From assembly GCA_004295055.1 (NCBI GenBank), contig SHNJ01000015.1:1-40206 (forward strand): 40,206 nt of DNA, read 5' to 3'. The notes beneath the pieces were generated by a model. It saw nothing but the letters and a program-made list of their open reading frames with translations. It ran no database searches and was not told the DNA's origin. The DNA is from Alphaproteobacteria bacterium. Lineage in GTDB: Bacteria; Pseudomonadota; Alphaproteobacteria; SHNJ01. Positions 23,420-34,866 of this stretch are shown here, in pieces. The position numbers and the translations under genes are program-made. Numbering within the stretch: the stretch's first letter is position 1; each line of letters starts with the position of its first letter.

Positions 23420-23500
23420 TCGGAGTGTAGCTCAGCCCAAAGGCCGAAAGGCCGCCTTACAAAATCAGGCTGAGCGGCACGATGATAAATATTTTTATAG
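23420..23500 (+). repeat. Upstream copy of tRNA-Pro 5' end plus palindromic insert
   Basis: The 18 bases at 23420-23437 (T plus the first 17 bases of tRNA-Pro) recur exactly at 23501-23518, offset 81 bp. Between the copies lie 63 bases with strong dyads: GGCC-GAAA-GGCC at 23442-23453, and GCTCAGCC (23430-23437) pairing with GGCTGAGC (23468-23475). This is therefore a partial tRNA copy separated from the real gene by a foldable insert. It has no coding content. Confidence 0.85.
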
Positions 23501-23501
23501 T

Positions 23502-23578
23502 CGGAGTGTAGCTCAGCCTGGTAGAGCACTACGTTCGGGACGTAGGGGCCGTAGGTTCGAATCCTATCACTCCGACCA
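23502..23578 (+). tRNA. tRNA-Pro (anticodon CGG)
   Basis: Full cloverleaf by eye: acceptor CGGAGTG paired with CACTCCG, D arm GCTC/GAGC, anticodon stem CTACG/CGTAG with loop TTCGGGA (anticodon CGG), T arm GTAGG-TTCGAAT-CCTAT, discriminator A and encoded CCA. Length is 77 bases. The T stem uses one G-T pair. Both ends of the gene are partly duplicated in the flanks: the 5' end 81 bp upstream and the 3' end 106 bp downstream. Confidence 0.97.
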
Positions 23579-23685
23579 TCCTCCTACGCTCCTTCGGAGC
23601 TACGGAGGACGAGTGATAGAAATTATAGATTCGGTGGGACTCGCCCTGCGTAGCGCAACGCGCGAAGCGGGGTCACTCCGACCAT
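23579..23685 (+). mobile_element. tRNA-3'-end mini-element, copy 1 (after tRNA-Pro)
   Basis: Non-coding element beginning at the base after CCA. The left arm starts TCCTCCTACGCT and folds as a 6-bp outer stem, a 3x3 internal loop (TAC/TAC), a 5-bp inner stem and a TTC loop. A variable middle of about 25 bases follows. The right arm starts ACTCGCCCTGCGTAGCGC and also folds (CCCTGC with GCGGGG). The element ends in TCACTCCGACCAT (23673-23685), an exact 13-bp copy of the tRNA-Pro 3' end at 23567-23579. The same arms occur after tRNA-Val at 34681-34791, ending there in the Val acceptor strand. No recombinase is nearby; mobility is inferred. Confidence 0.7.
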
Positions 23686-34578: not shown

Positions 34579-34652
34579 GGATAGCCTGCCGAGCCGTAGC
34601 CGACGACCGCACCGGCCCGCCTATGTTCCTTCGGAACTTCGGCGCGGCATCC
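34579..34652. repeat. Palindromic element with CTTCG hairpin core
   Basis: 74-bp GC-rich element bounded by GGATAGCC and GGCATCC-type ends. Its core GTTCCTTCGGAAC (34625-34637) is a 5-bp stem with a TTC loop, the same geometry as the inner hairpins of the two tRNA-flanking elements (GCTCCTTCGGAGC, GCTTCTTCGAAGC). It is non-coding and begins 14 bp after the preceding gene's stop. Confidence 0.6.
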
Positions 34653-34686
34653 TTCAACTTATGTTTATTATAATGGGCGAAGGATG
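34648..34686. repeat. Inverted repeat CATCCTTC / GAAGGATG
   Basis: Exact 8-bp dyad (34648-34655 and 34679-34686) around a 23-base AT-rich loop, bridging the palindromic element at 34579-34652 and the copy of the tRNA-Val 3' end. On the minus strand this could act as a terminator-like hairpin downstream of tRNA-Val. Confidence 0.55.
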
Positions 34687-34791
34687 GTGGGTACAGCCCT
34701 CCTTCGCGCGGCGCGCTACGTAGGGCGAGTTCCTGTTGAATGTATAGGAGTTATGGCTTGTCCTCCGTAGCTTCGAAGAAGCGTAGGAGGA
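34681..34791 (-). mobile_element. tRNA-3'-end mini-element, copy 2 (after tRNA-Val)
   Basis: Read on the minus strand it begins right after the CCA of tRNA-Val with TCCTCCTACGCT. Over its first 35 bases it matches the element behind tRNA-Pro at 32 positions. The middle differs. The right arm ACTCGCCCTACGTAGCGC is again conserved and folds (GCCCT with AGGGC). It ends in the tRNA-Val 3' strand: on the plus strand AGGATGGTGGGTACA at 34681-34695 equals 34788-34802, offset 107 bp. Two of the three left-arm differences (34779 and 34773) are a compensatory C-G to T-A change in the inner stem. Confidence 0.7.
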
Positions 34792-34866
34792 TGGTGGGTA
34801 CAACAGGGATTGAACCTGTGACCCCTACCATGTCAAGGTAGTGCTCTCCCGCTGAGCTATGTACCC
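34792..34866 (-). tRNA. tRNA-Val (anticodon GAC)
   Basis: Minus-strand cloverleaf: acceptor GGGTACA/TGTACCC, D arm GCTC/GAGC, anticodon stem CTACC/GGTAG with loop TTGACAT (anticodon GAC), T arm ACAGG-TTCAATC-CCTGT, discriminator A and encoded CCA. Length is 75 bases. It is divergent from bioD and followed by a mini-element that repeats its 3' end. Confidence 0.97.

Follow-up and report, generated by a model that had tools for sequence, protein, structure and literature searches.

Hairpin elements directly behind the CCA of tRNA genes: a candidate insertion-element family associated with a small GIY-YIG nuclease

The tRNA-Val and tRNA-Pro loci

The window analysed here, 40,206 nucleotides of contig SHNJ01000015.1, comes from an Alphaproteobacteria bacterium whose genome is referred to as G000. 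It contains tRNA-Val(gac) on the minus strand (34792–34866, CCA at 34792–34794) and tRNA-Pro(cgg) on the plus strand (23502–23578, CCA at 23576–23578), each followed on its own strand by an element of about 95 bp. Both elements start with a left hairpin that contains a TAC/TAC internal loop and whose first base abuts the CCA. At tRNA-Val this hairpin occupies 34757–34791 on the minus strand (TCCTCC-TAC-GC..GC-TAC-GGAGGACAAG, motif at offset 0), and at tRNA-Pro 23579–23613 on the plus strand. A spacer, a hairpin with a GWA/GWA internal loop and a copy of the tRNA 3' end complete the arrangement, which is designated type B.

The second hairpin of the Pro element (23643–23672, plus strand, GTA/GAA internal loop) is also matched weakly (23644–23672, 12.2 bits) by R1, a covariance model built from 15 G000 copies of the type A element described below. 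Its Val counterpart (34696–34726, minus strand, GCCCTAC-GTA-GCGCGCCGCGC-GAA-GGAGGGC) has the form C-GTA-G...C-GAA-G and was not flagged by the strict internal-loop motif scan. The family proposed in this study is characterized by a TWC/TWC hairpin at +1 followed by a GWA/GWA hairpin; in the Pro element both were found by motif scan, in the Val element the left hairpin was found by motif scan and the second by reading the sequence.

The first-pass annotation of the window had described the two bodies as homologous, with a common right arm, and this was confirmed. The first 35 bases after the CCA (TCCTCCTACGCTTCTTCGAAGCTACGGAGGACAAG for Val, TCCTCCTACGCTCCTTCGGAGCTACGGAGGACGAG for Pro) are identical at 32 positions, and two of the three differences form one compensatory T-A/C-G pair in the inner stem of the left hairpin. 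Over 90 bp the bodies share 79% identity (BLAST, E=8.5e-15), and the right arm corresponds to the second hairpin. The ends are target-specific, as had been claimed, each being derived from the 3' end of its own tRNA: a 12-nt copy, TGTACCCACCAT, behind tRNA-Val (34684–34695, minus strand; source at 34791–34802) and a 13-nt copy, TCACTCCGACCAT, behind tRNA-Pro (23673–23685, plus strand; source at 23567–23579). The Val repeat had originally been given as AGGATGGTGGGTACA, at 34681–34695 and 34788–34802. Its coordinates and the offset of 107 are correct, but only the 12 nt of TGTACCCACCAT are derived from the tRNA; the additional CCT arises because the next element also starts with TCCT. This neighbour, at 34582–34684 on the minus strand, is a type A element, a different subtype with three stems (H1, H2, and H3). 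It is recognized by R1 with 101.5 bits (E 7e-25) and is similar to other tRNA-adjacent copies.

Upstream of tRNA-Pro, a copy of the tRNA 5' end (TCGGAGTGTAGCTCAGCC) is located at 23420–23437 on the plus strand, followed by a hairpin segment (23438–23500). It is a 5'-side version of the partial tRNA duplication.

Elements and tRNA-end copies in the source genome

The genome G000 contains about 40 tRNA genes (ARAGORN and RF00005). By inspection, hairpin-rich sequence was found at or near the CCA of 23 of 39 tRNAs, and an element also lies behind the CCA of the acceptor piece of the permuted tmRNA, so the two copies of the window are not the only ones. The commonest form is type A, with a length of about 100 nt. 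It consists of a perfect stem H1 starting at the base after the CCA, a TG dinucleotide, H2, which is a hairpin with a 3x3 internal loop GWA/GWA, and H3, which ends with GGCAAGCCA. All four values are seen for the first base, x, and it covaries with its partner. Pairing is possible between the TG behind this partner and the CA of the tRNA CCA, and H1 is often extended by exactly 2 bp in this way. Among the 15 aligned copies, 95% of the cells are paired and 43 double changes were counted, compared to 14 in shuffles; when the alignment was slid out of register, at most 46% were paired. Copies resemble other copies within the same genome. Three G000 tRNA-Ser genes (L243, L244, and L245) have elements in antisense orientation abutting their 5' ends.

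Exact copies of a tRNA 3' suffix of at least 10 nt were found within 400 bp downstream of six G000 tRNAs, compared to 0.11 expected from the ends of other tRNAs, and none in the upstream windows. Copies of the 5' end (at least 11 nt, upstream) were found for five tRNAs versus 0.03 expected. The terminal repeats of Val and Pro are real and do not reflect chance. The tRNA 3' end is frequently duplicated in G000, G001, and G011, and no such copy was found in G015 and G059. In a general sample of genome contigs no enrichment was detected (three copies versus 2.8 expected, two of them tandem repeats). The duplication is lineage-restricted and hence no obligatory product of insertion, and some copies possibly stem from tandem duplication or from a tRNA fragment.

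Some further observations concern these copies. The 5'-end copies (12–18 nt) lie upstream of tRNA-Pro, Arg, Thr, and Met with a hairpin between copy and gene (23420–23437 in the window; L039, L029, L023, L144, and L171), and the one at tRNA-Thr(cgt) is common to G000 and G001. Inverted T-arm copies precede some of the 3' copies (L020, L050, L231, and L228). At tRNA-Leu(taa), G000 and G001 both have the sequence CCTAGGTTGGTTAGGCGGTGGC, which is found again upstream of tRNA-Ser(gct).

At tRNA-Val, tRNA-Gly(tcc), and tRNA-Leu(taa) of G000, a type A element directly follows the tRNA 3' copy. The resulting order of tRNA, newer element, 3' copy, and older element is most simply explained if the newer unit was inserted at the CCA and the tRNA end was duplicated in the process. 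Such copies could also be produced, with no mobile insertion, if the tRNA 3' end and its trailer underwent tandem duplication or slippage. In the E. coli tyrT repeats (rtT RNA), the downstream repeat unit carries the tRNA 3' end and is co-transcribed, and real arrays occur at tRNA-Phe of G000 and at tRNA-Leu(gag) of G001 and G011. Whereas tyrT represents tandem duplications at one locus, the elements described here are found behind many tRNAs, with homologous bodies, target-specific ends and a GIY-YIG ORF; no Rfam family, rtT and group I and II introns included, matches them. As the interval at Val, Gly, and Leu(taa) is unrelated to the sequence behind the copy, it was inserted, and both empty and filled sites exist (see below). 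Tandem duplication is therefore an unlikely general explanation. With many further copies, each tied to its own tRNA, separate insertion at each tRNA, as initially proposed, is favoured over duplication of one locus.

Distribution, covariation and turnover

A covariance-model scan of sister genomes had been suggested for the Val and Pro copies, and with R1 it was productive: 8 of the 58 further alphaproteobacterial genomes gave matches, in most cases immediately behind the tRNA CCA, and R1 matches in general lie nearly all at tRNA ends. R1 also recognizes members in Opitutales, Betaproteobacteria, and Patescibacteria (e.g., L279 at 3e-15). The TWC/TWC hairpin was analysed downstream of the tRNAs of G000, G015, G059, and G011 and starts at offset 0 in nearly all cases, compared to a shuffled expectation of less than 0.1 per genome. 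A count of hairpins at +1 that allowed G-U pairs did not discriminate, and the internal-loop motif test was used instead.

Genome contigs were additionally scanned for a T-arm followed by CCA and xCCTWCGC...YGWAGG, with no protein criterion, which yielded at least 118 loci. The matches listed include Bradyrhizobium, Rhizobium, Mesorhizobium, Caulobacteraceae, Hyphomonadaceae, and Sphingomonadales as well as Verrucomicrobiota, Lentisphaerae, Kiritimatiellota, Acidobacteriota, Armatimonadota, Beta- and Deltaproteobacteria, Patescibacteria, and others. As about ten chance matches are estimated for the whole collection, a single match per phylum proves little. Members are present behind the CCA in Alpha-, Beta-, and Deltaproteobacteria, Verrucomicrobiota, Acidobacteriota, Kiritimatiellota, and Patescibacteria, with further phyla represented by the pattern only. 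What had appeared to be a private pair of copies is instead part of a structured family spread across many phyla.

In a cross-phylum alignment of 92 distinct rows, 94% of the positions are paired, both partners changed in 20 of 23 pairs, and 245 double changes were counted versus 60 in shuffles, the alignment being fitted to the model. On the sense strand, G-U pairs outnumber A-C mismatches by 21:6 in an unfitted and by 79:31 in a model-fitted alignment, suggesting that it is the tRNA-sense strand that folds.

Occupancy was compared between relatives. G015 and G059 are congeneric, and the gene downstream of tRNA-Pro(tgg) aligns in both; in G015 the CCA is followed by TTTACTTCGG, in G059 by an element of about 95 bp that starts exactly after the CCA. 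This is the one clean empty/filled pair found. Element presence or type also differs between these genomes at Lys(ctt), Met, Ala(cgc), Ser(tga), and others, whereas the element-free tRNAs (Asn, Cys, His, Trp, and Leu) align from the CCA with almost no shift. In G001, the only genome of the same family as G000, tRNA-Val(gac), also located beside bioD, and tRNA-Pro(cgg) precede unrelated sequence. The arms are not a tRNA leader or trailer conserved at these loci in all relatives. In G059, H2-type hairpins are nested within other H2 hairpins (L189, L201, and L184), which suggests that the hairpin alone can insert.

The tRNA-Ala site of Bradyrhizobium behaves differently. An element was present in 50 of 50 genomes examined and no empty site was detected among them; the elements belong to at least two unrelated subfamilies and show compensatory pair changes. 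Sites thus turn over but are rarely empty there, and this site looks maintained more than recently mobile. Such conservation with compensatory pair swaps would be expected of functional tRNA 3' trailers, selected for maturation, stability or read-through control. In that case gene conversion or copying would occasionally spread them, and the presence of the nuclease gene would be incidental. The excess of G-U over A-C, expected if the sense strand folds (the second alignment being model-fitted), and the frequent reach of H1 into the tRNA CA point in the same direction. However, many tRNAs of the same genomes lack an element, congeneric orthologues differ in its presence and type, copies resemble others of their own genome, antisense copies lie upstream of tRNA-Ser genes, and the association with GIY-YIG ORFs described below is strong. 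As a full explanation we regard trailer function as possible though rather improbable; a role as RNA trailer nevertheless has to be taken seriously, either as an alternative or in addition to mobility.

The GIY-YIG nuclease ORF and the origin of the elements

Downstream of elements at the pattern-selected loci, small ORFs starting with YVYIL were seen. An HMM built from ten of them and run on these loci identified 28 GIY-YIG ORFs in the 118 loci listed, 23 of them immediately behind an element in the same orientation and three immediately before an element-bearing tRNA. The element-linked ORFs match PF01541 at 1e-14 to 1e-16 (E 2.7e-16 for the G000 protein), and Y5, Y16, R26, and E62 are invariant among them. 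The nearest solved structure is that of UPF0213 (1zg2, E 5e-6), while NCBIfam holds no model for the tRNA-linked ORF and a plasmid search with it gave no match. Full-length copies, about 350–560 bp in size, comprise CCA, left hairpin, stem H1, hairpin H2, and an ORF of about 80 amino acids ending with FEKYLKSGSGRAFAKKRL. Most copies have no ORF, so the nuclease could be cargo. G000 has one intact gene copy, 130 bp behind tRNA-Leu(tag), and the left hairpin there has GCTCCTWCGGAGCTACGG in common with the Pro copy. A protein-first search of viral contigs yielded two loci, both with hairpins. In one (L435), a canonical element (R1, 2e-9) is preceded by a tRNA-Ser-like CCA end and immediately followed by the ORF. 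In the other (L436), a left-hairpin-like sequence precedes and a GAA/GAA hairpin follows the ORF, with no recognizable tRNA; this contig also has a match to LOOT RNA (RF03000) at 1799–1910.

The first-pass annotation had held that any recombinase would act in trans and had suggested a search for a tyrosine recombinase. Action in trans is plausible with one intact element-linked nuclease gene in the genome, but the enzyme linked to the elements is a GIY-YIG nuclease, and a tyrosine recombinase is not indicated. An origin as remnants of tyrosine-recombinase integrative elements (attL/attR with the interior deleted) is very improbable. Although att sites classically lie in tRNA 3' ends, several copies begin in the T-loop, and the viral element lies behind a tRNA-Ser-like 3' fragment, att remnants would not be expected to show one homologous body beside many different tRNAs with target-specific ends, a size of 100 bp, a precise junction at the CCA, or conserved hairpins, and the Val and Pro copies span the acceptor strand only.

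REP and REPIN palindromes have a RAYT (Y1 HUH) transposase as partner (PMC3733652, PMC8266576). The elements resemble them in being short, dispersed, imperfect palindromes whose partner enzyme is encoded by one gene that many copies lack; the conservation of internal loops within imperfect hairpins, the units of two hairpins, and the nested copies are further similarities. Unlike them, they have a GIY-YIG partner, a location at the tRNA CCA, and tRNA-end duplications, and direct repeats are not expected of the Y1 mechanism. PF01797 (Y1) was found in none of G000, G001, G015, G059, and G011, three of which are nearly complete and element-rich, whereas control genomes were positive. Movement by a RAYT is thus hardly credible. 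Assignment to REPs was also rejected on their terminal tag (GTAG/CGTC) and mainly intergenic non-tRNA location, as the elements start with xCCTWCG directly after the CCA.

Another small GIY-YIG subtype (...TLYVGVTNDLxRRVxEHK..GFT...) has no link to tRNAs. The seven copies examined (L365, L366, L368, L370, L371, L372, and L375, from G011, G001, G015, and G059) all lie beside CGTC-REP-like palindromes (GTCATYCCCGC..GCGGGRATCCA) or similar ones, several with palindromes on both sides in inverted orientation. CGTC REPs are said to have no dedicated transposase (PMC3733652). On a speculative and quite doubtful reading, more than one family of palindromic repeats, CGTC-type REPs included, would have a GIY-YIG nuclease as partner.

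Two further systems were compared. Free-standing or intron-borne GIY-YIG homing endonucleases (PMC1564403) similarly place the catalytic domain on a small selfish-looking element. Here, in contrast, there is no Rfam intron, the protein is a single catalytic domain of about 80 amino acids with hairpins directly upstream of its ORF, and spread appears to be to non-allelic tRNA genes rather than to the cognate allele; occupancy differs at orthologous tRNAs, but the copies also occupy many different tRNAs. Casposons insert at tRNA 3' ends with a reported median target duplication of 15 nt (PMC4046053), similar to the 12–22 nt seen here. Casposons are large and carry Cas1 and PolB, whereas the elements span 50–560 bp and even their ORF-bearing copies (350–560 bp) are too small to carry these genes.

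The common architecture, the precise placement at the CCA, the differences in occupancy between species and the association with the nuclease ORF support a family of insertion elements with autonomous (ORF-bearing) and non-autonomous members. We conclude that the Val and Pro elements were probably inserted in separate events, as non-autonomous members of this family of short structured elements abutting the tRNA CCA, and that they are possibly mobilized in trans by the GIY-YIG nuclease. For the mechanism, we infer that the nuclease would nick DNA at the end of the tRNA gene, and that the element, recognized via its hairpins, would be joined or copied in directly behind the CCA. If the nicks were staggered by about 12–20 nt, gap filling would duplicate the tRNA 3' end and leave the tRNA whole; insertion in the D-arm would duplicate the 5' end instead. 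Copies with no ORF would move in trans. At the Val locus, the newer element would have been placed between the tRNA and the older element (34582–34684), and the element structure may also serve as an RNA trailer on the tRNA transcript or be retained as one at a later stage. Because the cuts made by GIY-YIG enzymes are usually only a short distance apart, this model does not account for duplications of 12–22 nt. A more speculative version, which we consider quite doubtful, would have a nuclease-bound, guide-type RNA between tRNA and ORF, transcribed from the tRNA promoter and bordered at its 5' side by the tRNA 3' end, steer the GIY-YIG protein to tRNA genes. Such RNA-guided homing would involve a new nuclease class and would be analogous, though unrelated, to IscB and TnpB with their RNAs.

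The defining features of each known family considered failed or were not seen, although in general outline the elements and their nuclease are reminiscent of REP/RAYT pairs. In open-access papers nothing was found on GIY-YIG nucleases with tRNA-end palindromes, and a multi-phylum family of hairpin elements at the tRNA CCA is apparently undescribed. If the interpretation is correct, the elements would constitute an undescribed class of bacterial mobile elements, structured and 50–560 bp in size, that are linked to a GIY-YIG nuclease, occur across many phyla and are located where tRNA genes end in the universally conserved CCA. Partial tRNA copies beside tRNA genes would thereby be explained, many orphan annotations as 'GIY-YIG nuclease family protein' would be accounted for, and palindromic repeats would gain a testable candidate enzyme. 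Furthermore, the elements raise the question of whether the RNA of a selfish element was adopted as a tRNA trailer.
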